In this document: piece after piece, positions 11,771-25,397 of the stretch
How the letters are laid out: every line of letters starts with the position of its first letter
How positions within the stretch are numbered: position 1 is the first letter of the stretch
DNA from: an uncultured Bacteroidota bacterium
Lineage (GTDB): Bacteria > Bacteroidota > Bacteroidia > Flavobacteriales > Flavobacteriaceae
Direction: 5' to 3'
DNA length: 64,000 bases
NCBI GenBank assembly: GCA_902620455.1
Contig: CACNIG010000001.1
Location: forward strand, 62,001-126,000
The notes under the pieces: model-generated
What the model saw: the letters and a program-made list of their open reading frames with translations, nothing else
What the model was told of the DNA's origin: nothing
The model's database searches: none
Program-made: the position numbers and the translations under genes

Positions 11771-13585
11771 ATGGCATCTAAATATATTGATATAAAGACA
11801 GTTAAATTCTTTATGAACAGTGTACAAGAATTAGAAAAAATATTAAATAAAGAAAGGTTTATCGATCATAATAGTGAATCTGTAGACCTTTATATTGATT
11901 CTGTCAAAAAATTTGCTGACAGAGAACTGTTTCCTTATTTCAAAGAGATGGATGAGAAACCTGCTCATTATAAAGATGGTTCAATCCATGTTCATCAACA
12001 AGTTGAAAAAATGATGAAAGAAGGAGGTGCTATGGGTTTAATTTCTGCACCATTTAATTATGAAGACGGAGGTCTTCAGTTGCCTTTACTTGTTCATACT
12101 GCTTCAAACTATATTTTAGATGCTGCTAACAATCATTTACCAGGTTATTCTGGGCTTACTTCAGGTGCTGCAGAACTAATTATAGAATTTGCAAGTAAAG
12201 AACTAAAAGAAAAATATACTCCTAAGATGCTTACCGGAGAATGGGGTGGAACTATGTGTTTAACCGAACCACAAGCTGGAAGCTCTTTATCTGACATTGT
12301 TACAAAAGCTACACCAGATGCAAATAATGCATACAAAATTTGTGGTCAAAAAATATTTATATCAGGAGGGGATCATCAGTACGCAGGGAATATAGTTCAT
12401 CTTTTACTGGCCAGAATAGAAGGAGCTCCTGCTGGGACAAAAGGAATATCATTGTTTGTAGTACCAAAAAATAGATTAAATGATAATGGTGAGTTAGAAG
12501 CTAACGATGTAACTACGGTTGCTGATTTTGAAAAAATGGGTCAAAAAGGTTATTGTACTACTCATCTAAGTTTTGGAGATAAAGGTGACTGTCATGGTTA
12601 TCTGGTAGGTGAAGAAAACCAGGGTCTTAATTATATGTTTCTTATGATGAACGGTGCTCGAATTGCAGTCGGTCGTGGTGCATCAGCAATTGCATGTGCT
12701 GCTTATTACGCATCTTTAGAATATGCTAATGAACGTCCTCAAGGTCGTAAACTTTCATCTGATGGTACAAAGAATTTAAAAAATAAACAAAGTCTAATAA
12801 TTGAACACCCCGATGTAAGACGAATGCTCCTTTTACAAAAATCAATGGTTGAAGGTTCAATGAATATTATCTTTAAAGCTGCAAAATATTTTGATCTTCA
12901 GCATAATAGCACTGACAAAAAAGAAAAACATAAATATGAGACTTTACTTGAAATGATAATTCCTGTAGTCAAAACTTATCCATCAGAGGCTGGCATTTAT
13001 TCTATTAATAATGGGCTCCAAGTTCTTGGGGGTTATGGTTTTTGTTCAGACTTTATTTTACAACAATATTATCGTGATATAAGAATATCATCTATATATG
13101 AGGGAACTACTGGAATACAATCCCAAGATCTACTTGGTAGGAAGATGATGTTAAATAATGGTGAGGGTGCTAAGCTTTTATTAGATGAAATAAAAATAAC
13201 AATTGATAAGGCAATTCAGGATGAAGATTTAAAAAAGTGGGCAGAGGCATTAAATGATCAACTTGATCAAACTCAAAAAATTTTATTTCACCTTATACCC
13301 TTTGCTGCTAAAGGTGATTATGAAAGATTTCTAGCAGATGCATCAATATTTATGGAATTTTTTAGCCTTGTTCTTATTGGGTGGTCATGGTTAGAAATTG
13401 GCATTACTAGCAAAAAATCTTTAATAATGAGCAATAGTTCTGATGACTCTAGCTTCTTTAAAAGTAAGTTAGATACTTTGGAATATTTTTATGCATATGA
13501 ATTACCTAAAACAAAGGGACTGGCTGATATACTATTACACCCTTCATCAATTACCATAAAAAAGGAAAACAAAGTAATAAGTTAA
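11771..13585 (+). CDS. Acyl-CoA dehydrogenase, long form (about 600 residues)
   Basis: This 604-residue flavoprotein oxidises acyl-CoA to enoyl-CoA and passes electrons to ETF. The core holds the FAD/substrate motif MCLTEPQAGSSLSD and the catalytic base region SIYEGTTGIQ (Glu near residue 444). The length with extra N- and C-terminal segments fits the FadE/DmdC-like subgroup common in marine flavobacteria. The chain length is unknown; DmdC-type activity on 3-methylmercaptopropionyl-CoA is one option but no other dmd genes are nearby. It has its own promoter box. It sits opposite a second, different acyl-CoA dehydrogenase operon, and etfBA lies about 10 kb downstream. Confidence 0.93.
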   Translation: MASKYIDIKTVKFFMNSVQELEKILNKERFIDHNSESVDLYIDSVKKFADRELFPYFKEMDEKPAHYKDGSIHVHQQVEKMMKEGGAMGLISAPFNYEDGGLQLPLLVHTASNYILDAANNHLPGYSGLTSGAAELIIEFASKELKEKYTPKMLTGEWGGTMCLTEPQAGSSLSDIVTKATPDANNAYKICGQKIFISGGDHQYAGNIVHLLLARIEGAPAGTKGISLFVVPKNRLNDNGELEANDVTTVADFEKMGQKGYCTTHLSFGDKGDCHGYLVGEENQGLNYMFLMMNGARIAVGRGASAIACAAYYASLEYANERPQGRKLSSDGTKNLKNKQSLIIEHPDVRRMLLLQKSMVEGSMNIIFKAAKYFDLQHNSTDKKEKHKYETLLEMIIPVVKTYPSEAGIYSINNGLQVLGGYGFCSDFILQQYYRDIRISSIYEGTTGIQSQDLLGRKMMLNNGEGAKLLLDEIKITIDKAIQDEDLKKWAEALNDQLDQTQKILFHLIPFAAKGDYERFLADASIFMEFFSLVLIGWSWLEIGITSKKSLIMSNSSDDSSFFKSKLDTLEYFYAYELPKTKGLADILLHPSSITIKKENKVIS

Positions 13586-13614: not shown

Positions 13615-14688
13615 TTAAAATTCAATTTTTTGATTTTCGATTGATATTTTAGCCATTCTAGCATATGATTGGACAACTAAATTTAAGTTTTTAAACCTTA
13701 TATCATTTGTAAAACCTCTTTCATATCTAAAATATATTTGTTGGACTATAACTGCTATTTTAAACAATCCAAAAACAAAATAAAAAACAATATTTTCAAT
13801 GTTTACACCAAATCTGGTAGAATACATTTCTAATATTTCTCCTCTCTTTGGATTATTTTCATTTGATGTAATGTTTAGGTTAATTGCTTGCATATATTCA
13901 GGATCATCTTTGTTGATCCAATAAGCAAGAGAGGTTCCTAAATCCATAAAAGGATCACCTGTTGTACACATCTCCCAATCTAAAACAGATTTAACAGATA
14001 AATCATTAGAGTCAATAACTAAATTGTCATATTTAAAATCATTATGAATGAGGGAAACATATTCTGATTCTGAAATATTTTCATTTAACCATTTAATTAC
14101 AAAATTTATTTCAGGAATATGAGAGGTTTTAGAATTTTCATACCTCTTTGACCAACCTTGAACTTGTCTTGAGCAGTAACCTTTAGGTCTTCCAAATTCA
14201 GCTAGACCTATTTCCTCAACATTTAATTTATGAAGTTCAACAAGTGTATCTACAAACTCTGATGCTATAAAATTATATTTATTTTTATCTGTAAGTATTT
14301 TTTGATAATTATTATTTCTGAGTACTGTTCCTCTTATCCTCTCCATTATATAAAAATCAGAACCAATAATATTTATATCATCACAATAGTGAATAGGAGT
14401 AGGTGATTTTTTATAATTTTTATCAAGAGCAGATAATACATTGAATTCTCTACTCATATCATGACCAGATTTTATTTTTGCACCAATAGGTGGTTTTCTA
14501 AGAATATACTCCTTATTGTTAGAACTTATTAAATAAGTAAGATTTGAAAATCCTGATGGAAATTGAAGAAGCTCAAAGCTACTCTTATCAATGTCTAAAA
14601 AGTTAATTAAATAATTACACAAACTATTATTATCTAGGACTTCGTCCTTTCTTATTTGTGTTGGATTGTCAATGAATTTTTCAGACAT
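13615..14688 (-). CDS. APH-fold kinase, ACAD10/11 N-terminal type
   Basis: This 357-residue protein kinase-like phosphotransferase has the nucleotide-binding segment FPSGFSNLTYLI, the catalytic loop HNDFKYDN (residues 215-222, base Asp217) and the metal-binding Asp237 in VLDWEMCTTGDPFMDLG. YILRKPPIGAKIKSGHDMSREF closely follows the kinase half of ACAD10/11. The related bacterial LvaA phosphorylates the 4-hydroxyl of 4-hydroxyvaleryl-CoA. Here the kinase is a separate gene 21 bases after the matching dehydrogenase, last in an operon with MaoC and SDR genes. I infer 4-hydroxyacyl-CoA kinase activity. Aminoglycoside resistance is unlikely. Confidence 0.88.
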   Translation of the reverse strand: MSEKFIDNPTQIRKDEVLDNNSLCNYLINFLDIDKSSFELLQFPSGFSNLTYLISSNNKEYILRKPPIGAKIKSGHDMSREFNVLSALDKNYKKSPTPIHYCDDINIIGSDFYIMERIRGTVLRNNNYQKILTDKNKYNFIASEFVDTLVELHKLNVEEIGLAEFGRPKGYCSRQVQGWSKRYENSKTSHIPEINFVIKWLNENISESEYVSLIHNDFKYDNLVIDSNDLSVKSVLDWEMCTTGDPFMDLGTSLAYWINKDDPEYMQAINLNITSNENNPKRGEILEMYSTRFGVNIENIVFYFVFGLFKIAVIVQQIYFRYERGFTNDIRFKNLNLVVQSYARMAKISIENQKIEF

Positions 14689-14709
14689 TATAAGTTAGGG
14701 TAACAAACT

Positions 14710-15888
14710 TTATTTTTTGTAAGATTTTAAAATAAGCCTGGCCAGTCTGCTTTTATGTACTTCGTCAGCGCCATCATATATTCTTGAGGCTCTTTCATGT
14801 CTATAATATGATGATAAAATCAGGTCATCCGTAACTCCTAATGCACCATGAACCTGAATAGCATAATCAACGACTTTCTGAAGAACATTAGCGCAATAAA
14901 ATTTTATTATAGATATCTCAGCCCTGGACTTATATGTTCCTTGAGCATCAATTTTTTTTGCGGCATCCTGAACCATCAACCTTGCAGCATTTATTTCTGC
15001 CCTTGATTCTGCGATCCAATTTTGAATTGTCTGCTTATCTGAAAGCATTGTTCCATCAGATATTTCTCTAGATACTGCTCTTTCACACATTAGATTAAAT
15101 GCTCTTTCACACATTCCTATCCACCTCATACAATGATGAATCCTACCTGGCCCTAATCGCTTTTGAGCTATAGCAAACCCCTCTCCTTCAGAGCCTAAAA
15201 CATTAGTAATAGGTACTTTAACATTATTAAATTTTATTTCAGCATGACTTTCCCAACCTGCTCCAGGATGTCCCATAATTGAGACATTTCTAACAAATTC
15301 AACTCCATCTGTTTCTAATGGAACAATTATTTGACTAGCTTTTTTGTGTAAATCTTCACCATCAGGATCAGTTACTACCATTACTATAGCAAAGCTAGCT
15401 CCATCAAAACTTGAAGTAAACCATTTATGACCATTAATAATATAGTTGTCATTTTCTTTTTTTGCGGTTGTTCCCATTCTTGTTGGATTTGATCCTGCAT
15501 ATTGAGGCTCTGTCATTGCAAAACAACTTCTAATTTTTCCTTCTAAAAGAGGATACAAATACTGTTGTTTTTGTTCCTCCGTACCAGTCTCAATTAATAC
15601 TTCCATATTTCCTGCATCAGGTGCCTGACAATTAAAAACGTAAAAGCCATACGGACTTGCACCAAGAATTTCACTTACCTCTCCATGTTGTTCAAGAGAT
15701 AAACCAAGACCACCATATTCTTTTGATACTTGAGGTAACCAAAAGCCCATCTTTTTTACTTTATCTCTTAATTCATTAAGTTTAGGAAGCTTTTCACTCC
15801 ACTCTGAATTAACAATCCATGGTTCGAGTGAAATTAATTCATCTTTTATGAATGTTCTAATTTGTTCTTTTACCTCTGTAAAGTTCAT
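14710..15888 (-). CDS. Acyl-CoA dehydrogenase family protein, ACAD10/11-type
   Basis: This is a 392-residue acyl-CoA dehydrogenase fold protein. It has the FAD motif AMTEPQYAGSNPT and a strong ACAD11 signature, LGPGRIHHCMRWIGMCERA (residues 245-263). The position of the usual catalytic Glu reads IYDGADEVH (Asp372), as in ACAD10/11, whereas the other dehydrogenase in the window reads IYEG. In this subfamily the enzyme converts a 4-phosphoacyl-CoA toward enoyl-CoA rather than doing a plain dehydrogenation. It lies between the MaoC gene (26 bases away) and the kinase gene (21 bases away) in one operon. The subfamily assignment is strong; the chain length is unknown. Confidence 0.92.
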   Translation of the reverse strand: MNFTEVKEQIRTFIKDELISLEPWIVNSEWSEKLPKLNELRDKVKKMGFWLPQVSKEYGGLGLSLEQHGEVSEILGASPYGFYVFNCQAPDAGNMEVLIETGTEEQKQQYLYPLLEGKIRSCFAMTEPQYAGSNPTRMGTTAKKENDNYIINGHKWFTSSFDGASFAIVMVVTDPDGEDLHKKASQIIVPLETDGVEFVRNVSIMGHPGAGWESHAEIKFNNVKVPITNVLGSEGEGFAIAQKRLGPGRIHHCMRWIGMCERAFNLMCERAVSREISDGTMLSDKQTIQNWIAESRAEINAARLMVQDAAKKIDAQGTYKSRAEISIIKFYCANVLQKVVDYAIQVHGALGVTDDLILSSYYRHERASRIYDGADEVHKSRLARLILKSYKK

Positions 15889-15914
15889 TTTTTAAAAATA
15901 TAAATTTTTATTTT

Positions 15915-16394
15915 TTAGCTTGGAAGTGAATATATTAGTGATATTGTCTCTGCCACGCATACAGGTTTAATTTCACCATCAACTTCGAATATAATTTTGA
16001 AAGTATATTTTGCCCCTCCTGTAACTTTCTCAATTTTTATCAAAGACACCCTACCTCTAAATTTTGACTCAGCTGGAGTAGCATTAGGAAATCGAACCTT
16101 TTCAAGGCCATAGTTTACTGCAAGTGCAATGTTATTTATCTTTAATGTTTGAAACACAACCTGTGATGCATATGAAAGAATATGAAACCCGTGAGCTATA
16201 GTTTTTTTGTAAGGAGAATATTTTGCAGCTTTTTCTTGGTCAATATGAATCCACTGTTTATCTTCAGTTAATTCTGCAAATTCGTTAACTTTATCTTGTG
16301 ACATATTAAACCACTTAGATATTCCAATTTCTTTTCCAAGGTATTTATCTAAATCTTCTATATTTTCTATTTCTGTTGAATAAGGTTTTTCCAT
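15915..16394 (-). CDS. MaoC-like (R)-specific enoyl-CoA hydratase
   Basis: This 159-residue hot-dog fold protein probably adds water to an enoyl-CoA. The hydratase-2 motif is TEDKQWIHIDQEKA with likely catalytic Asp45 and His50, followed by KKTIAHGFHILS. It is the second gene of the SDR-MaoC-ACAD-kinase operon, ten bases after the SDR stop. In that setting it would hydrate the enoyl-CoA made by the ACAD10/11-type dehydrogenase. R-stereospecificity is a family property that I have not been able to test. Confidence 0.9.
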   Translation of the reverse strand: MEKPYSTEIENIEDLDKYLGKEIGISKWFNMSQDKVNEFAELTEDKQWIHIDQEKAAKYSPYKKTIAHGFHILSYASQVVFQTLKINNIALAVNYGLEKVRFPNATPAESKFRGRVSLIKIEKVTGGAKYTFKIIFEVDGEIKPVCVAETISLIYSLPS

Positions 16395-16403
16395 AATGTT
16401 GGG

Positions 16404-17180
16404 TTAATTTATCATATAACCACCGTCTATATTAAATGTTTCTCCAGTTGTATAACTTGAAGCTTCAGAAGCAAGATAAAGAGCTATTCCTGATATTTCG
16501 TCAGGATCTCCAGCCCTTCGAATTGGAAGATCACCAAGCCATGTTTCTAACATTTCCTCATTTTGCCATAAAGCTGAACTTAATTTTGTTTTGATTAACC
16601 CGGGACAAATTGCATTTGACCTTACCCCATATTTACCCCACTCCTTTGCCTGAGATTTAGTGAGCATTGATATAGCGGCTTTGCTGATAGAGTAAACTCC
16701 CAAACCTTTGTCAGGCTTATTTGCCTCAACTGATGATATATTTATAATAGAACCAGACTTGTTTTCCTTCATATATTCAAACACAAGATTAGATAGTTTG
16801 AAAGGGGACTTTGTATTGATATCTAGTATTTTATTAAAAAGTTTTTCATCAGCATTTTCTAGACGATCAAATACAGGATTTATTCCAGCATTATTAACAA
16901 GTATATCAATTCTTCCATATTTATTGATTGTAGTTTCAATTAGATTTTTTAACTGATCATCTTCACCTACGTGACAAACACATTCAATTGCGTTATAACC
17001 ATTTGCAGTTATTTCACTAACAACTTTCTCAATACCCTCTTGAGATCTACTGCTTACAACGACGTTTGCCCCAAATTCTGCAAATGCTTTTGCAATTGAG
17101 GCCCCTATGCCTTTACTGGCCCCAGTTACAATTGCTACCTTATCTGTTAAATCAAATAAGTTTTTATATTTTGTTTTCAT
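16404..17180 (-). CDS. Short-chain dehydrogenase/reductase (FabG-like)
   Basis: This is a 258-residue NAD(P)-dependent oxidoreductase. The cofactor motif TGASKGIG is at residues 19-26, NNAG at 96-99, and the catalytic Ser149/150, Tyr163 and Lys167 are in INISS and YSISK. The C-terminal ICPGLIKTKLS and GETFNIDGGYMIN are typical of classical SDRs. It is the first gene of the minus-strand operon with MaoC, ACAD and kinase, and is divergent from the acyl-CoA ligase. In this setting it may oxidise a hydroxyacyl-CoA or, like LvaD, interconvert a 4-keto and 4-hydroxy group; the sequence does not decide. Confidence 0.93.
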   Translation of the reverse strand: MKTKYKNLFDLTDKVAIVTGASKGIGASIAKAFAEFGANVVVSSRSQEGIEKVVSEITANGYNAIECVCHVGEDDQLKNLIETTINKYGRIDILVNNAGINPVFDRLENADEKLFNKILDINTKSPFKLSNLVFEYMKENKSGSIINISSVEANKPDKGLGVYSISKAAISMLTKSQAKEWGKYGVRSNAICPGLIKTKLSSALWQNEEMLETWLGDLPIRRAGDPDEISGIALYLASEASSYTTGETFNIDGGYMIN

Positions 17181-17345: not shown

Positions 17346-19034
17346 ATGAGTGCAAATCAAGAATTATTTGAACTAAAATTCTATAAATGGGAGAAAGAGT
17401 TTAAGGACAAGCCTTATCTGAGGCAACCAATAGGTGAAACATGGGAGGAGTATACATGGGGTGAAGTTGGTGATATGGCAAGAAGATTAGCCTCCGGACT
17501 AAAATCACTTAATCTTAGAGAGGGAGCTCACATAGGTATTTATTCTAAAAATTGTAGAGAATGGATAATCTCAGATTTAGCAATTGTAATGGCAGGATAT
17601 ATCTCTGTTCCTTTTTTCCCATCTTTAAATGGTAAGGAACTATCCTACATAATGGATTATGGTGATGTTGATGCTCTTTTTATAGGAAAAATTGAAACTT
17701 GGGATGATATCAAGAATGATTTGCCCAGTGAAATGCCCATAATAAGATTCCCTAAATATGAGGGGTGTTCAAATGTAACCAAAGGTCATGAGTGGCATGA
17801 ATTTATAAATAGTCATGAACCGATTGAAAATCCAAATAAACCAAAACTATCAGATCTATGGACTATTATTTTTACATCTGGGACAACAGGTAACCCAAAA
17901 GGAGTTATGCTAACATACCAGGCAATTGATGGAATAAAAGTTGTTTTGGATGATCCAAACAATCCTTTAGGAATAAAACATACTGGGAATAATGATTTTA
18001 TTTCATACTTACCATTAAATCATATTTTTGAAAGAGTTGTAATCGAATGGTGTTCATTTAGGTATGGAGGTACAATCTCATTTGTAGAATCTATTGAAAC
18101 CTTTGGCCAAAATTTAAAGGAGGTACAGCCACATGTATTCGCTGCTGCTCCAAGAGTCTGGACTAAACTTCAAATGGGAATATTATCTAAATTCCCTCAG
18201 AAAAAGTTAGACACTCTTCTTAAAATTCCATTGCTCTCAACTATTCTTAAAAAACTAATAAGAAAAGGACTTGGTTTTAGCAGAGTTAGAGTGACGGTTT
18301 CCGGGTCAGCACCTATGCCAGTTGAATTAATTGAGTGGTTTAGAAAAGTTGGAGTATACATAACTAATGGATACGGTATGACAGAGAATTGTGCCATATG
18401 TAGCTCTGTAGATGGTAAAGACTTTGAAAAATTAAATACTGTTGGAAAACCTCAAAAAGGTGTTGAGCTTAAGATTGACGAGGGAACAGGTGAAATTTTG
18501 ATGCGTGGGCCTTTTGTGATGATTGGTTATTATAAAAATAAAGAGTTATCAAATGAGACTTTAAGAGGTGGTTGGCTACACACAGGAGATAAAGGGTTCT
18601 TGGATGAAGATGGTTACCTTCATATAACAGGAAGAGTTGCTGATAGCTTTAAGACATCAAAAGGAGAATATATTGAACCACTTACTTTAGAACAGTTTTT
18701 TGTTAATATGAATGAAATTGAAGAAGTTTGTGTAGTAGGTCTTGGAATTGCTCAACCAATGTGTCTAATTCAATTATCAGATATTGGAAAAAGTGCCACT
18801 AAGGATAATCTATCAAAAATGTTCCTTGATACTCTTAAAAATATTAATAGCGACCTGGTAAACTATAAGAAAATATCAACGCTTATAATTGTTAAAGATG
18901 AATGGTCGCAAGAAAATGGAATTGTTGGACCAACTCAAAAGTTGAAGCGAGGAGCAGTTGATGAAAAGTATAATAAAGACTACTTAAAATGGCATGAATC
19001 AGACCAAAAATTAATTTTTGAAGACAGTTTTTGA
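17346..19034 (+). CDS. Long-chain fatty acid--CoA ligase (AMP-forming)
   Basis: This is a 562-residue acyl-CoA synthetase that activates fatty acids via an acyl-AMP. The P-loop IIFTSGTTGNPKGVM is near residues 175-190, GYGMTENCA is the A5-type motif, and WLHTGDKGFLDEDGYLHITGR contains the hinge Asp and Arg. The C-terminal domain carries the expected basic residues near GPTQKLKRG. It is divergent from the SDR-led operon across a 165-base gap in which I see no clear TAnnTTTG box. It is the natural supplier of acyl-CoA for the surrounding dehydrogenases. Confidence 0.94.
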   Translation: MSANQELFELKFYKWEKEFKDKPYLRQPIGETWEEYTWGEVGDMARRLASGLKSLNLREGAHIGIYSKNCREWIISDLAIVMAGYISVPFFPSLNGKELSYIMDYGDVDALFIGKIETWDDIKNDLPSEMPIIRFPKYEGCSNVTKGHEWHEFINSHEPIENPNKPKLSDLWTIIFTSGTTGNPKGVMLTYQAIDGIKVVLDDPNNPLGIKHTGNNDFISYLPLNHIFERVVIEWCSFRYGGTISFVESIETFGQNLKEVQPHVFAAAPRVWTKLQMGILSKFPQKKLDTLLKIPLLSTILKKLIRKGLGFSRVRVTVSGSAPMPVELIEWFRKVGVYITNGYGMTENCAICSSVDGKDFEKLNTVGKPQKGVELKIDEGTGEILMRGPFVMIGYYKNKELSNETLRGGWLHTGDKGFLDEDGYLHITGRVADSFKTSKGEYIEPLTLEQFFVNMNEIEEVCVVGLGIAQPMCLIQLSDIGKSATKDNLSKMFLDTLKNINSDLVNYKKISTLIIVKDEWSQENGIVGPTQKLKRGAVDEKYNKDYLKWHESDQKLIFEDSF

Positions 19035-19232: not shown

Positions 19233-22154
19233 ATGAAAAATATTTTAAATAAGTATTATCTAGCCTTTATGGCTGTAATTCTGTTTGGTAATGTTTACTC
19301 TCAAACTCAAATTTCTGGATCTGTTAGTGATGCAGAAAGCATGAGTTCTATACCTGGAGTAAATGTAATCATAGATGGAACAAATATTGGAACAGTAACT
19401 GACTTTGATGGAAATTTTTCCATTAATACAAGTCAAGATCTTCCTTTGACAATAGTTGTTAGTTATGTAGGGTACTCAGCTGAGAAAGTTATTGTTACCT
19501 CTGCTAACCAAGATATTAACGTAATGCTTTCAGCAGGTCAAAACCTTGAAGAAATAGTAGTATCTGCCTCAAGGCGTGCTCAAAAAGCACTAGAAGCTCC
19601 TGCATCAGTTAGTGTTATTTCAACAAGAGAGATTGAAAACTCTTCTGCAGTTGCAGATCCTGCAAGAATTCTTACAAATGTGCCAGGAGTTCAAATACAA
19701 CAACAAAGTGCAAACTCTTTGAATTTCGAAATGAGAGCAGGCTCTGGTACATTTGGTACCTCGACATTTATCATGCAAGATAACAGGTTTCTAACAACAC
19801 CTGCTGCCGGAACTTATTTCAGTTTTCAACAAGGTCTTTCAAATTTAGATTTAGCCTCGGTTGAGGTTGTTAGAGGTGCTGCTGGTGTTTTATATGGACC
19901 TGGTGTAACTTCTGGTGTTATTCACTTTAGGACTAAGAGTCCAATAGAATATCAAGGAAATTCTCTTTCTATGTGGGCAGGTGAAATGAATACCTTTGGT
20001 TCAGAATTTAGAATTGCTAGAGCAAATGATGACAAAACTTTTGGATGGAAAATTAATGCTACTTTAAGCTCTGGTACAGATTTTACTTATGAAGATGAAT
20101 CCCAACTTAGTAATGCGGGTATTACAATAAATAGAATCATTCGTCAGCCTATAATTACAAATAAATATGTAGACCCAGGACTATCTCCTGGCGGACCTAT
20201 TCTTTTAGACTTTAGTAACAATGAAAATGCAATTATAGATGAATACAGCAATTTAACCGCTAATACTACTTTAGAGTGGAGACCAAGTGATGATACAAAC
20301 TATACTGTTAGTGCTGGACTAAACAGTGGTAGTGGTTTATTCTGGCAAGACTTAGGTATTGGTTATGCAGATGGTACTACATATTGGGGTCAAGCTCAGG
20401 CAACTATTGGTAATTGGTATGCCCAAGCATTTGTTGACCACAATGATGGTGGACAAGAAGAGAATCCAACGTTCCTTTATGGATCTGGTTATAGACAAGT
20501 AGCAAAAAGAACCTCTGTGGAAGCTCAACTTCAATATAACTTTGATTTACCTTCACTATTTGACTCAGAATGGACCTTTGGATGGGATTACAGAGATACG
20601 GCCTCTGATTCTGAATACACACTTTATGGAAGAAATGATGATGATGATAAGTATACTATTAATGGTATTTACGGACAAGGTACTCTTAAAATGTCAGAAA
20701 AAGTTGATCTTGTTTTGGCGGGAAGATACGATCAAATGAATATAATAAGTACAGGAGAATTTGCTCCTAGAGTTGCATTAGTATATAAGCCATCTGAGAA
20801 TACAACTTGGAGGTTTGCATACAACAAAGCACTCTCTGGACCTACAGCTCTTCAACAATATATTGACTTTCCTGTAGCTGTTCAAGCTCCAGGAATTTTA
20901 GATGCATGGCTTACAGGACAAGCAAATGCTCAAAGATTTGGTGATCCTTCAACTCAAGTAATTGATCTTGCTGGACTTCCAATAGATATTCCTGTGAGTG
21001 CTGCAGGAGGTGGTCTTCCACTTGCTATCCCTTACGGATCTGTTGCATCTGCATCTTGGGCTGGTTTATTTGCTCAAGCGCCATCACTACAGCCTCTATT
21101 AACACCATGGATTGCTCAGTATGGTGGTCCATCTGGCGGATCTGGGATATTAAGTCCTTATGATGCATTTGAACCAACAAGAACTACAGGAAATAGAGAT
21201 ACTAACAGGGCTGCTTTTACCTCTGTTGAGAACATCGAGTTTGGAGTAACAAGTGTTATCGGTAAACTTAAGTTAAGTGCAGATGTATACTCTTATGAAA
21301 CAATTGGTTTCACAAACTTTAATGCTGTAGGTGATACTTATGCACTGGTTGGTTCTGATATTCCTGGAGATTTAGGTGCTGCTGTTGCTGCTGATGCTAC
21401 TGCATATGTTACAGGAGCTTTGACTGCAGTTACTACTCAAACCTATCAAGGTGTTGCTGCTCAATTAGGACTTCCTTTTAGTGTTGTTGCATCTGGTGCT
21501 CTAGCTGCACAAGGTGTACCTGCTCTTCAAACTGCAATTGCTGGTGGTGTGGCACAAACTCTTGGAGGAATTAATGGTGCTTTCCAAGCTGGTGGTGCAG
21601 GATTTGTTAGTCAATTAGGTCCTCTATTTGGTGCTATTGGTGCTGTTGAGTCTGATATGGTACCTCAAGGAGATGGTATTACTCACATTACAACAGGTTA
21701 CATAACTAATGGAGACGCTAGAAGATCACACTTTGGTGCTGACTTTTCAATGGATTACTTCGCAAATCCTGACTTAAGGTTATGGGCTAATGCTTCATGG
21801 TTAAGTCAAAATGAGTGGATTCCAGGAGAAGACAATGATGATGGGTTATTAAATACATCATATTTAAATGTTCCTAAATGGAAATATAGAATGGGTGTAG
21901 ATTATACTCCTCTTTCAGGATTTAATTTCTCAGTCTCATTCCAACATGATGATAAGTTTAGATCAGTCCAAGGTTTTTGGAATGGTATGGTTGAAACAAA
22001 AAACTTAGTTGATGCTAGTGTAGGTTACAAATTTAGTCCAAATCTAAGGTTTGATATATCTGCTACTAATTTAACAGATAAACCATATCAAACTTATCCA
22101 AATCTTCCTACAATTAGAAGAAGAGTGTTAGGTAAACTTACTTTCAACTTCTAA
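19233..22154 (+). CDS. TonB-dependent outer-membrane receptor with carboxypeptidase-D-like N-terminal domain
   Basis: This is a 973-residue outer-membrane receptor that takes up a ligand using TonB energy. A signal peptide (MKNILNKYYLAFMAVILFGN) is followed by a CarboxypepD_reg-like domain (about 25-105), a plug (EEIVVSASRRAQKALEAPASVSV, then VVRGAAGVLYGPGV) and a beta-barrel ending in LTFNF. Two unusual Ala/Gly/Leu-rich stretches (about residues 545-650 and 712-809) look like long hydrophobic inserts between strands. It lies between an acyl-CoA ligase and HMG-CoA synthase/ETF genes, so a lipid or other hydrophobic ligand is plausible. The start is ATG 19233, downstream of the -7 box. A strong terminator follows. 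Confidence 0.93.
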   Translation: MKNILNKYYLAFMAVILFGNVYSQTQISGSVSDAESMSSIPGVNVIIDGTNIGTVTDFDGNFSINTSQDLPLTIVVSYVGYSAEKVIVTSANQDINVMLSAGQNLEEIVVSASRRAQKALEAPASVSVISTREIENSSAVADPARILTNVPGVQIQQQSANSLNFEMRAGSGTFGTSTFIMQDNRFLTTPAAGTYFSFQQGLSNLDLASVEVVRGAAGVLYGPGVTSGVIHFRTKSPIEYQGNSLSMWAGEMNTFGSEFRIARANDDKTFGWKINATLSSGTDFTYEDESQLSNAGITINRIIRQPIITNKYVDPGLSPGGPILLDFSNNENAIIDEYSNLTANTTLEWRPSDDTNYTVSAGLNSGSGLFWQDLGIGYADGTTYWGQAQATIGNWYAQAFVDHNDGGQEENPTFLYGSGYRQVAKRTSVEAQLQYNFDLPSLFDSEWTFGWDYRDTASDSEYTLYGRNDDDDKYTINGIYGQGTLKMSEKVDLVLAGRYDQMNIISTGEFAPRVALVYKPSENTTWRFAYNKALSGPTALQQYIDFPVAVQAPGILDAWLTGQANAQRFGDPSTQVIDLAGLPIDIPVSAAGGGLPLAIPYGSVASASWAGLFAQAPSLQPLLTPWIAQYGGPSGGSGILSPYDAFEPTRTTGNRDTNRAAFTSVENIEFGVTSVIGKLKLSADVYSYETIGFTNFNAVGDTYALVGSDIPGDLGAAVAADATAYVTGALTAVTTQTYQGVAAQLGLPFSVVASGALAAQGVPALQTAIAGGVAQTLGGINGAFQAGGAGFVSQLGPLFGAIGAVESDMVPQGDGITHITTGYITNGDARRSHFGADFSMDYFANPDLRLWANASWLSQNEWIPGEDNDDGLLNTSYLNVPKWKYRMGVDYTPLSGFNFSVSFQHDDKFRSVQGFWNGMVETKNLVDASVGYKFSPNLRFDISATNLTDKPYQTYPNLPTIRRRVLGKLTFNF

Positions 22155-22247: not shown

Positions 22248-23690
22248 ATGATTAAAGTAGGTATTGATTCAATTTCATATTATGTCCCATCTCTTTATGT
22301 AGATATTGAAGAATTGGCTACAGCTCGAGATATTCCCTCAGAAAAGCTAGTTAAGGGATTAGGTCTTAAAAAAATGGCTACCCCTGATTATGATGAAGAC
22401 TCTGCATCAATTGCTGCAAACTCATTATACAGGCTAATAAAGGAAAATAATATTGATCCTAGAAAAGTTGGAAGGGTTTACTTAGGAACAGAAAGTGGCG
22501 TTGACGCTTCTAAACCTACATCTTCTTACGTAGTTGAAATTCTTGAAGATATTTGTGCTGAAGAATTTGGTGAAAGATGTTTCAAGAACTGTGATATTGT
22601 AGATCTTACTTTTGCTTGTGCTGGCGCTGTTGATGCCCTTCAAAATTGTTGTGATTGGGTAAGAAATGGGGAAAATAGACAAGCAATTGTAATCGCATCT
22701 GATATTGCAAAATATGAGCTTAATTCAACTGGTGAATACACACAGGGTGCAGGATCTGTTTCAATGTTAATTTGTGAAAATCCATCAATTATTTCTTTCA
22801 ACGGATCATGGGGAGTTTCTACAAAAGGAATTGGAGATTTTTTCAAGCCGAGGAGATTATTTAAAAAATCAAATATACTTATGGAAGCTGCTAGACTTTT
22901 AGGAAAAGAAGTATCTTCAAGTGAAGCTGAAAAACTTCTACATAAGGCTGATTCAAAATTCTGGTCTGATTCTAATGATTTTGTTGAAGTATACAAAGAA
23001 GAACCAATATTTGAAGGTCAATTTTCAAATGAAAGTTATAAAGAAAGAGTATATGAGGCAATTGAAGACTTTAATGAACAGAATCAAAGAGATATTTTAA
23101 GTGATTGGGAAAATATAATTTTCCACCTTCCTTATGCATATCATGGAAGGAGAATGATAGTAAATAAATGGATGGACTGGATGAAAGAAAATAATCAACT
23201 TGAAAAAATATACTCGGAGATTGGTAAACCAAATTCATCTGAAGATAAAGATTGGATAAAAAAAGTTTCAAAGTCAGATATCTATAAGTCTTTTATTGAA
23301 GATAAAATTTCTCCAGGTGAGAAAGCCTCATCCGAAATTGGAAATATGTATACTGCTTCCATTTTTATGTCTTTAATAAGTTCTTTAGTTGAAGCTTTTG
23401 AAAAAGAAAGAGAGCTAATAAATAAGAAAATAGGGTTTATTAGTTACGGTAGTGGCTCAAAAGCTAAAATTTTCGAAGGTACTATCCAAAAAGATTGGAT
23501 AATAAAAACTAAACCAATCAAATTATTTGAAAACCTAGATAATAGGAAGAAAGTGAGTGTTGATATTTATGAAAAACTGCACAAAAGAAAAATATCCTCT
23601 AACATAAATAACAACGATGGAATTATAAAGCTTTCCAAAATCTCTAAAGATGAGTTTACAGAAGGTCTGAGAAATTATATCAAGTACTAG
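22248..23690 (+). CDS. Hydroxymethylglutaryl-CoA synthase family protein
   Basis: This is a 480-residue thiolase-fold condensing enzyme. The nucleophile Cys124 is in DLTFACAGAVDAL, the catalytic His region is IIFHLPYAYHGRRM, and ISYGSGSKAKIFEG is the C-terminal Gly motif. HMG-CoA synthase makes HMG-CoA from acetoacetyl-CoA and acetyl-CoA for the mevalonate route; this protein is somewhat longer than most bacterial forms. ATG 22248 is chosen because the -7 box covers the in-frame TTG at 22230. It is nine bases upstream of etfB, so it shares a transcript with ETF. A role in acyl-CoA breakdown is therefore an alternative to isoprenoid synthesis. Confidence 0.87.
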   Translation: MIKVGIDSISYYVPSLYVDIEELATARDIPSEKLVKGLGLKKMATPDYDEDSASIAANSLYRLIKENNIDPRKVGRVYLGTESGVDASKPTSSYVVEILEDICAEEFGERCFKNCDIVDLTFACAGAVDALQNCCDWVRNGENRQAIVIASDIAKYELNSTGEYTQGAGSVSMLICENPSIISFNGSWGVSTKGIGDFFKPRRLFKKSNILMEAARLLGKEVSSSEAEKLLHKADSKFWSDSNDFVEVYKEEPIFEGQFSNESYKERVYEAIEDFNEQNQRDILSDWENIIFHLPYAYHGRRMIVNKWMDWMKENNQLEKIYSEIGKPNSSEDKDWIKKVSKSDIYKSFIEDKISPGEKASSEIGNMYTASIFMSLISSLVEAFEKERELINKKIGFISYGSGSKAKIFEGTIQKDWIIKTKPIKLFENLDNRKKVSVDIYEKLHKRKISSNINNNDGIIKLSKISKDEFTEGLRNYIKY

Positions 23691-23699
23691 AACATAATA

Positions 23700-24446
23700 A
23701 TGAATATTTTAGTTTGTATTAGCAACGTACCCGACACTACATCAAAAATTAATTTTGTTGAAAATGATTCAAGTTTTGATACAAATGGAGTACAATTTGT
23801 AATTAATCCAAATGATGAATTTGGATTAACCAAAGCTGTTTGGATGAAGGAATCAAATCAAGCAAATTTAACAGTACTAACCGTTGGTGATTCCTCAGTA
23901 GAGGCTACCCTAAGAAAGTGTCTTGCAATTGGTGCAGACAGAGCTATTAGAATTGACTGTCCAGCACATGATGCTTATTCTGTTGCTAAAGAAATTGAAG
24001 CACATTGCAAGGAAACAGACTATGATTTAATTATTTGTGGAAGAGAATCAATTGATTACAATGGTGGCTTAGTCCCTGGACTTTTGGCTGGACTGCTTGA
24101 CTTCAACTTTGTTACAAATTGTGTAAGTTTAGAAATTGAAGGATCAAAAGCTACATTTTCTCGTGAAATGTCAGGAGGTACTGAGATTAGTCAATGTAAG
24201 CTTCCTCTTGTTATTGGATCTCAAAAAGGATTAGTTGAAGAAAGTGATCTTATTATCCCTAATATGAGAGGAATAATGATGGCAAGACAAAAACCCCTAG
24301 ACGTAATTCCAGCACAAGGCATCAATCCCAAAACTCTTGATAAAAAGTTCAGTAAACCTGATGTTAAAAGTGAAGTTAAACTTGTAAAAGCAGATGAGCT
24401 TGATAAATTAATTGATCTATTAGAAAACGAAGCAAAAGTAATATAA
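23700..24446 (+). CDS. etfB: Electron transfer flavoprotein beta subunit
   Basis: This is the 248-residue small subunit of ETF, which carries electrons from acyl-CoA dehydrogenases to the respiratory chain. It shows the family pattern VCISNVPDTTSKINF, GVQFVINPNDEFGLTKAVWMKE, CLAIGADRAIRIDC and the AMP-site region GRESIDYNGGLVPGLLAGLL. It lies nine bases after the HMG-CoA synthase gene and three bases before etfA, in one operon. It is the likely electron acceptor for the two acyl-CoA dehydrogenases upstream. Confidence 0.96.
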   Translation: MNILVCISNVPDTTSKINFVENDSSFDTNGVQFVINPNDEFGLTKAVWMKESNQANLTVLTVGDSSVEATLRKCLAIGADRAIRIDCPAHDAYSVAKEIEAHCKETDYDLIICGRESIDYNGGLVPGLLAGLLDFNFVTNCVSLEIEGSKATFSREMSGGTEISQCKLPLVIGSQKGLVEESDLIIPNMRGIMMARQKPLDVIPAQGINPKTLDKKFSKPDVKSEVKLVKADELDKLIDLLENEAKVI

Positions 24447-24449
24447 TAA

Positions 24450-25397
24450 ATGGCAGTACTAGTATATATAGAATCTGAAAACAATCAATTCAAAAAATCA
24501 TCTTGTGAGGCTCTTTGTTATGGCAAAGCTCTTGGAGATAATTTTGGAGAAGTGGTTTATGGTGTAGTTGTTAACTGTACTGATACAGAAAGTTTAAATG
24601 CTTATGGTGCTGACAAAATCATTAATATTAATAGTCCTGATTTAAATGATTTTTCTTCAAAAAAATATGCCCATGCTATAGTTGAAGTCATGAAAAGTGA
24701 AAATTCAAAGATTGTTATCTTATCCTCTTCACCTAATTCAAAATATCTTGGTGCTTACTTATCTGGCATAACTGATTCATCATTTGTTTCAAATGTTGTA
24801 GAATTACCTGAAAGTAATAACCCGTTTACTGTAAAAAGAACTTGTTTTACAAATAAAGCTTTCTCTTTAACAGAATTGAATTCAGATATAAAAATTATTA
24901 GTATTACTTCAAATTCTTTTGGGATAGTTGAGAATCCAAATAATCCTAAAAATGAAGTAATAAATATAAAGGGAATTGATTCAAACCAGAAAATATTAAA
25001 TATTGAAAAAGAAACCGGATCTGTTACAATAGCAGATGCAGAAATTGTAGTTTCAGCTGGAAGGGGACTTAAAGGACCTGAAAATTGGGCAATGATCGAA
25101 TCTCTTGCTGATACATTAGGAGCTGCTACAGCATGTTCTAAACCAGTTTCAGATATGGGTTGGAGACCTCACAGCGAGCATGTTGGTCAAACTGGTAAAC
25201 CAGTATCCTCAAACTTATACATAGCAATTGGTATTTCTGGAGCTATTCAACATCTTGCGGGAATAAACTCCTCAAAAGTAAAAGTTGTTATTAATAATGA
25301 TCCTGAAGCACCATTTTTTAAAGCTGCAGATTATGGTGTTGTTGGTGATGCATTTGAAGTTGTTCCCACGTTAATAGAGAAACTTAAAGCCAGATAA
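24450..25397 (+). CDS. etfA: Electron transfer flavoprotein alpha subunit
   Basis: This is the 315-residue FAD-binding subunit of ETF. The C-terminal FAD domain is clear: VVSAGRGLKGPENWAMIESL, KPVSDMGWRPHSEHVGQTGK, YIAIGISGAIQHLAG and VVINNDPEAPFFKAADYGVVGD. The N-terminal domain is diverged, as is usual. It pairs with etfB directly upstream. A 141-base very AT-rich convergent gap follows, with only a weak hairpin near 25486-25513. Confidence 0.97.
   Translation: MAVLVYIESENNQFKKSSCEALCYGKALGDNFGEVVYGVVVNCTDTESLNAYGADKIININSPDLNDFSSKKYAHAIVEVMKSENSKIVILSSSPNSKYLGAYLSGITDSSFVSNVVELPESNNPFTVKRTCFTNKAFSLTELNSDIKIISITSNSFGIVENPNNPKNEVINIKGIDSNQKILNIEKETGSVTIADAEIVVSAGRGLKGPENWAMIESLADTLGAATACSKPVSDMGWRPHSEHVGQTGKPVSSNLYIAIGISGAIQHLAGINSSKVKVVINNDPEAPFFKAADYGVVGDAFEVVPTLIEKLKAR

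Follow-up and report, generated by a model that had tools for sequence, protein, structure and literature searches.

Here we analyze a putative operon in a 64,000-nucleotide stretch of DNA (the window) from an uncultured Bacteroidota bacterium of the Flavobacteriaceae (GenBank assembly GCA_902620455.1, contig CACNIG010000001.1, positions 62,001 to 126,000 of the forward strand). Two of its genes code for a kinase and a homologue of the acyl-CoA dehydrogenases (ACADs). We will argue that the operon probably encodes a two-protein bacterial version of the ACAD10/11 system, in which a 4-hydroxyacyl-CoA would be phosphorylated and the phosphate then eliminated to give an enoyl-CoA, which would proceed to beta-oxidation.

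Four open reading frames (ORFs) lie on the minus strand of the window:

13615..14688, minus strand: APH-fold kinase, 357 amino acids, predicted 4-hydroxyacyl-CoA kinase (Pfam APH)
14710..15888, minus strand: HCMR-type acyl-CoA dehydrogenase homologue, 392 amino acids, predicted to eliminate phosphate from 4-phosphoacyl-CoA (PDB 2wbi/8v3u, tree, fold)
15915..16394, minus strand: MaoC-type enoyl-CoA hydratase, Rv0130-like, 159 amino acids (PF01575; PDB 2c2i)
16404..17180, minus strand: short-chain dehydrogenase/reductase (SDR), 258 amino acids, proposed C4 keto/hydroxyacyl-CoA oxidoreductase in the role of LvaD (PF13561/PF00106)

The gaps between them are only 21 bp (kinase to dehydrogenase), 26 bp (dehydrogenase to MaoC) and 9 bp (MaoC to SDR), so the four ORFs very probably form one transcript. 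A scan of the operon for promoters and terminators found such signals to be no commoner than in shuffled sequences. The ORF coordinates confirm the layout given in the first-pass annotation, that is, four minus-strand ORFs and a divergent acyl-CoA ligase, and the motifs it had pointed to (GPGRIHHCMRW, IYDG and HNDFKYDN) are all present in the translations. The source genome is a 1.24 Mb draft that is 95.4% complete. A close relative, the marine single-cell genome AG-447-K04, has the same gene arrangement and a dehydrogenase that is 95% identical.

The dehydrogenase

Among solved structures, the dehydrogenase is matched best by human ACAD11 (2wbi, E 9.9e-85) and mouse ACAD11 (8v3u, E 2.7e-82). 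The next match is a homologue from Mycobacterium abscessus, and the best ordinary ACAD follows at E 1.1e-40. The fold gives the same picture. A search with the AlphaFold model (mean predicted local distance difference test score, pLDDT, 90.4) finds 4hr3, 2wbi and 8v3u at E of about 1e-30 and all others at about 1e-22 or worse, so that the ACAD11 structures and one mycobacterial homologue stand roughly seven to eight orders of magnitude ahead.

In ACAD11, residues R626, H634 and R637 hold the phosphate, and their replacement abolishes the elimination; D753 acts as the base, and R631 is a general feature of ACADs (Rashan et al., PMC12440821). The aligned equivalents in the window dehydrogenase are R244 (R626), R249 (R631), H252 (H634), R255 (R637) and D372 (D753). 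These five residues are invariant in 102 of 102 HCMR-type rows, 78 of which were fetched with peptide patterns including IHHCMRW (11 flavobacterial and 10 plasmid rows were fetched otherwise), and the set is missing from nine ordinary ACADs. R244 and D372 lie outside the fetching patterns. The features that define the HCMR superfamily, namely the HCMR motif, an upstream arginine and an aspartate in place of glutamate, are thus all found here as H252-C-M-R255, R244 and D372; the catalytic base is an aspartate, not the glutamate of ordinary ACADs.

A tree was calculated with IQ-TREE from 70 rows, 63 of HCMR type and 7 ordinary ACADs. The 63 HCMR rows form one clade with support 100/100, apart from the ordinary ACADs, which is the opposite of the grouping that the first-pass annotation had named as fatal to its reading. 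Within the HCMR rows, a clade of 18 (100/100) contains mouse and human ACAD11 and sequences from Burkholderia, Sphingopyxis, Bosea, Deinococcus and Streptomyces, and also takes in the dehydrogenase version of many other flavobacteria. The window dehydrogenase falls in a separate clade of 40 rows (99/97), sister to the ACAD10/11 clade, with members from Bacteroidota, Chloroflexota, Marinimicrobia, Myxococcota, Verrucomicrobiota, Spirochaetota, Planctomycetota, Gemmatimonadota and KSB1, and from one proteobacterium. It is therefore a member of a sister lineage, outside the ACAD10/11 clade proper. The description of this protein as an ACAD11-type dehydrogenase holds as far as top match and key residues are concerned, but not for its place in the tree.

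In the trees, an LvaB-containing operon of Thermus stands in for LvaA and LvaC of Pseudomonas putida. P. putida LvaC shares 62% identity with the ACAD10 domain and 56% with the ACAD11 domain (PMC11342911), from which we infer that it belongs to the ACAD11 clade. The dehydrogenase gene is found in 22 of 297 Bacteroidota genomes and in 17 of 151 Flavobacteriaceae genomes. The identities to the window protein, itself aside, split sharply in the Bacteroidota set into 51-61% and 42-44%.

The kinase

The best PDB matches of the kinase are 9o56, labelled "aminoglycoside phosphotransferase", and mouse ACAD11 (8v3v), the latter with E 4.2e-48. Taken with the match of the dehydrogenase to human ACAD11, this value excludes a chance likeness. 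In the kinase tree, the window kinase groups with that of mouse ACAD11 and is separated from the LvaB-associated kinase of Thermus, with support 97/92. The catalytic residues are kept as H215-x-D217, N222 and D237, with D217 and N222 corresponding to D220 and N225 of ACAD11. R80 and R174 are kept as well; their counterparts in ACAD11, R86 and R176, make contact with CoA in the model of that enzyme. The search with the AlphaFold model (pLDDT 90.9) returns 3dxp, the 25-hydroxy-steroid kinase (25-HSK) and ACAD11, with identities of 27% to ACAD11 and 16-17% to 25-HSK.

By these sequence comparisons the window kinase is of the ACAD10/11 type, which is LvaB-independent, and a lack of LvaB is then expected. 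Indeed, the absence of an LvaB-like subunit, remarked on earlier for the window, extends to the whole genome: LvaB (PF19802/DUF6285) has no match in it, while the same search was positive in Caulobacter and Thermus controls. The Thermus LvaB-associated kinase is without equivalents of both CoA-contacting arginines, so LvaB may supply a CoA-binding surface there. The operon in question, on the Thermus thermophilus plasmid pTT27 (L134:2010-5911; loci from other genomes are given by L numbers), is Lva-like and consists of SDR, HCMR ACAD, kinase, DUF6285 (LvaB) and histidine phosphatase.

Both superfamilies have many other functions, and automatic annotation often labels such kinases aminoglycoside phosphotransferases. 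One could thus read the pair as an ordinary ACAD beside an unrelated small-molecule or aminoglycoside kinase. The trees, the active-site residues and a pairing of the two genes that holds over about ten phyla speak against this, and an ordinary ACAD is ruled out by D372 in place of glutamate and by the tree placement. On the kinase side, no aminoglycoside-resistance kinase is found among the PDB matches at E 1e-3, and no aminoglycoside-resistance record among the listed matches from 72,556 plasmids at the same threshold. The score as an APH(3') kinase is 19.3 bits against a cut-off of 205. No APH(3') kinases to serve as outgroup were found in 198 Bacteroidota genomes, and the kinase tree contains no resistance kinase; the concern raised at the outset, that the kinase might side with aminoglycoside kinases, is answered by its grouping with mouse ACAD11 and by these searches. 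We consider this reading extremely improbable.

Gene neighborhood

Neighborhoods were counted in 79 loci, each with 3 kb or more of sequence on either side of the HCMR dehydrogenase gene. In 67 of them a kinase gene is found on the same strand, no more than 3 kb away. The partners are, however, not always the same, since in other flavobacteria (L025-L035) a dehydrogenase of the ACAD11 clade is paired with a kinase that falls among those of the window clade. A tree in which the kinases partnered with the window clade form a single clade is rejected by the approximately unbiased (AU) test (p 0.0008). The groupings of dehydrogenase and kinase thus disagree, which means that subunits have been exchanged in evolution. 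Such an exchange would fit a freely diffusing phospho-intermediate.

In the closest relatives (L020-L024), the operon adds an enoyl-CoA hydratase, a PimC/PimD-like ACAD pair and a second SDR, and a TonB receptor is nearby, as is the ligase where the fetched stretch reaches far enough. The PimC/PimD-like pair lies downstream of the kinase (e.g. L022:5564-7887), and one of its subunits resembles steroid-type heterotetrameric ACADs (6wy8, 4x28). One locus also has a 798-residue ORF made up of two tandem acyl-CoA dehydrogenases (L024:12357-14753).

In two marine relatives, a gene for a 4-hydroxybutyryl-CoA dehydratase of the AbfD type is situated between dehydrogenase and kinase (L038 and L021 are from the same genome):

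L038:9197-10708, plus strand: 4-hydroxybutyryl-CoA dehydratase (AbfD type)
L040:9185-10699, plus strand: 4-hydroxybutyryl-CoA dehydratase (AbfD type)
L021:6976-8487, minus strand: 4-hydroxybutyryl-CoA dehydratase (AbfD type)

The product in L038 and L040 matches 6vjr (vinylacetyl-CoA isomerase/4-hydroxybutyryl-CoA dehydratase) with E 2.7e-228 and AbfD (1u8v) with E 1.5e-166, and its CFQRC and YHRRSYVC segments agree with 6vjr. Since this second, non-homologous enzyme that dehydrates a 4-hydroxyacyl-CoA shares the operon, it gives independent support to that substrate class. The window genome itself has no 4-hydroxybutyryl-CoA dehydratase.

We also considered that the kinase might act on a bulky lipid and phosphorylate a hydroxyl at some other site, as 25-HSK does at C25 of sterols, and that the HCMR flavoprotein would eliminate phosphate from a site other than position 4 of a CoA ester. 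Among the fold matches of the kinase model, 25-HSK (9fsg/9ft5) ranks second; it is one half of an ATP-driven dehydration (PMC8449060), and the steroid-type likeness of one two-subunit ACAD in the relatives points the same way. But the identity to 25-HSK is well below that to ACAD11, the sequence match is far poorer (E 4e-4 against 4e-48), and the CoA-contacting R80 and R174 are kept. Furthermore, the catalytic aspartate and the phosphate-binding residues of the dehydrogenase are those that handle a 4-phosphate in ACAD11, and the dehydratase in the operon of two relatives also indicates position 4. This alternative is accordingly judged quite improbable.

Some further neighbors deserve mention. 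In 18 loci belonging to many phyla, a histidine phosphatase gene (PF00300) is found at most 3.5 kb from the HCMR dehydrogenase, and the fetched stretches contain none at a greater distance (examples are L046:7289-7972, L107:7160-7879, L134:5258-5911 and L135:6070-6768). In P. citronellolis, a histidine phosphatase likewise adjoins an lvaA homologue (PMC6692424). The enzyme possibly clears dead-end 4-phospho acids. On a plasmid of Streptomyces sp. NBC_00388 (L125:4823-13173), kinase and HCMR ACAD adjoin AfsA-type (butyrolactone synthesis) and ketosynthase genes.

Other genes of the locus

The SDR is the second most conserved neighbor of the kinase-dehydrogenase pair. Beside HCMR ACADs, SDR genes number 58 per 237 kb within 1.5 kb, compared with 8 per 551 kb beyond 4 kb, which is an enrichment of about 17-fold. 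The nearest solved structure is DHRS4, and the YxxxK and NNAG motifs are present. In Cyclobacteriaceae and others, SDR, ACAD and kinase are followed by a gene for a 3-hydroxyacyl-CoA dehydrogenase (present in 17 loci and at no greater distance), and MaoC is missing; the C3 step there thus does not require the SDR. LvaD, for its part, reduces 4-oxoacyl-CoA (levulinyl-CoA) to 4-hydroxyacyl-CoA (PMC6692424). As the SDR remains a core partner even without MaoC and with a separate 3-hydroxyacyl-CoA dehydrogenase, it is by this analogy more likely to act at C4, in the role of LvaD, than at C3. The first-pass annotation had hydratase and SDR complete the route; both are indeed in the operon, but the SDR would more likely take part at C4 than at C3.

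The MaoC protein matches 2c2i (Rv0130) with E 5.5e-32 and has D45-x4-H50. In Arenibacter (L042:6575-7909, L041:6579-7913), a MaoC hydratase of the same operon is fused to an enoyl-CoA hydratase (444 amino acids).

Three genes flank the operon:

17346..19034, plus strand: acyl-CoA ligase, 562 amino acids, divergent from the operon, proposed substrate activation (PF00501)
19233..22154, plus strand: TonB-dependent receptor without SusD, proposed uptake of the substrate or a precursor (PF13715, PF07715, PF00593)
11771..13585, plus strand: ordinary long acyl-CoA dehydrogenase, FadE5-like, 604 amino acids, convergent to the operon (PDB 8r1e, FadE5)

Ligase orthologues with 59-92% identity lie near the same cluster in L036, L038, L039 and L043, and divergent orthologues of the receptor are beside it in L021-L024, L036, L038 and L043. 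TonB-dependent receptors also adjoin the kinase-ACAD pair on Sphingopyxis and Alteromonas plasmids (L118:11968-13068, L121:1973-4798). A 58-65% identical orthologue of the FadE5-like dehydrogenase directly adjoins SDR, ACAD11 and APH in eight other flavobacteria, and it is likely the beta-oxidation partner. Beyond ligase and receptor, at 22248-25397, the window has genes for HMG-CoA synthase and for the beta and alpha subunits of electron transfer flavoprotein; the phosphate elimination itself should be independent of the latter.

Apart from LvaB, the set of activities equals that of lvaABCDE, which raises the possibility of a levulinate-type pathway for short-chain 4-oxo acids, with the ligase, the SDR as LvaD, the kinase as LvaA and the dehydrogenase as LvaC. 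The activity of LvaD on levulinyl-CoA and the conservation of the SDR are in its favor. Yet the genome is without LvaB, the kinase differs from the LvaB-associated type, and the operon of the relatives keeps PimC/PimD-like acyl-CoA dehydrogenases. Levulinate, moreover, can cross porins, so that a dedicated TonB receptor points to a larger substrate. We regard the levulinate pathway as unlikely, though it is the most serious of the alternatives.

Proposed mechanism

For the preferred ACAD10/11-type reading, the following sequence of steps can be proposed. An acyl-CoA ligase (ACSL or another) would form the 4-oxo- or 4-hydroxyacyl-CoA, and the SDR, by analogy to LvaD, would reduce or adjust C4 to give the 4-hydroxyacyl-CoA. 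The kinase would then move a phosphate from ATP to the 4-hydroxyl, with R80 and R174 gripping the CoA and D217 as the base. In the flavoprotein, D372 would remove the alpha proton while R244, H252 and R255 hold the 4-phosphate, and the loss of phosphate would yield the 2-enoyl-CoA with no net oxidation. MaoC would hydrate this product. The genome also contains tandem genes for a FadB-like protein and a thiolase, which would complete beta-oxidation, and the enoyl-CoA can thus be burnt.

A split ACAD10/11-type kinase and phospho-lyase acting on 4-hydroxyacyl-CoA, as first suggested, is consistent with sequence, fold, residues, trees and pairing, and with the dehydratase in the operon of two relatives; judged from these, it is the probable function of the pair. 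Several points weigh against it. The identity of the dehydrogenase to ACAD11 is about 40%, and among the rows fetched by pattern the conservation of HHCMR follows in part from the way they were selected. The enzymes with experimentally shown activity belong, as far as tested or inferred, to the other clade, not to that of the window. Finally, the window operon is a shortened version, the genome being without the enoyl-CoA hydratase, PimC/PimD-like and second SDR genes of the relatives' operon. A lactone as substrate, as first proposed, may yet apply but is a guess that finds no support: the cluster has no lactonase family.

ACAD10/11 and Lva have already established the chemistry, and activity has been demonstrated for bacterial orthologues (PMC11342911). 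The novelty lies in the deep sister clade, the set of genes that accompanies it in marine flavobacteria with streamlined genomes, the dehydratase as a neighbor and the shuffling of partners; no paper on such a flavobacterial cluster came up in a search of the literature. How mammals bring 4-hydroxy acids into beta-oxidation was worked out only in 2024-2025, and a related two-gene system on a deep sister branch occurs across many bacterial phyla. That even an ocean genome of 1.24 Mb retains the pair suggests that 4-hydroxy or 4-oxo acids regularly serve as a carbon source in the marine environment. The separate subunits and the absence of LvaB make the system a handy model for an unusual redox-neutral flavin elimination, and the finding would correct many "aminoglycoside phosphotransferase" annotations. 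More speculatively, the sister clade might represent another widespread line of bacterial flavoproteins that eliminate phosphate, with substrates of its own. These could be isoprenoid-like acids, or lipids bearing hydroxyl or oxo groups, which streamlined ocean bacteria would import via a dedicated TonB receptor; kinases would have been exchanged between lineages, and 4-hydroxybutyryl-CoA dehydratase would offer a parallel or alternative route. We hold this wider proposal only tentatively.

Comparison with known systems

Mammalian ACAD11 and ACAD10 have both domains, are LvaB-independent and share with the window proteins the equivalents of the mutationally proven residues (R626, H634, R637 and D753; D220, N225, R86 and R176). 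There, however, the domains form a fused chain, whereas the window has two ORFs 21 bp apart, a dehydrogenase of the sister clade at about 40% identity, and an operon that adds SDR and MaoC.

The P. putida lva operon (LvaA-LvaE, levulinate catabolism) likewise has a split kinase and ACAD homologue with an SDR and an acyl-CoA ligase nearby. The window differs from it in the absence of LvaB, in the type of kinase, and in having a TonB receptor and MaoC.

In Burkholderia pseudomallei, kinase and ACAD are also split, and these ACAD10-like proteins can stand in for the ACAD10 domains in vitro (PMC11342911). The Burkholderia dehydrogenase homologue in our tree (L117) is in the ACAD10/11 clade, not the window clade; the tested B. 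pseudomallei protein itself is not in the tree.

The 25-hydroxy steroid kinase of Sterolibacterium denitrificans resembles the window kinase as an APH-fold enzyme that starts an ATP-driven dehydration, but it acts on a tertiary steroid alcohol and is only 16-17% identical. AbfD, finally, also dehydrates a 4-hydroxyacyl-CoA, and its gene stands within the same operon in two relatives; it is, however, a non-homologous Fe-S/FAD enzyme, absent from the window genome, that reaches the same class of substrate.

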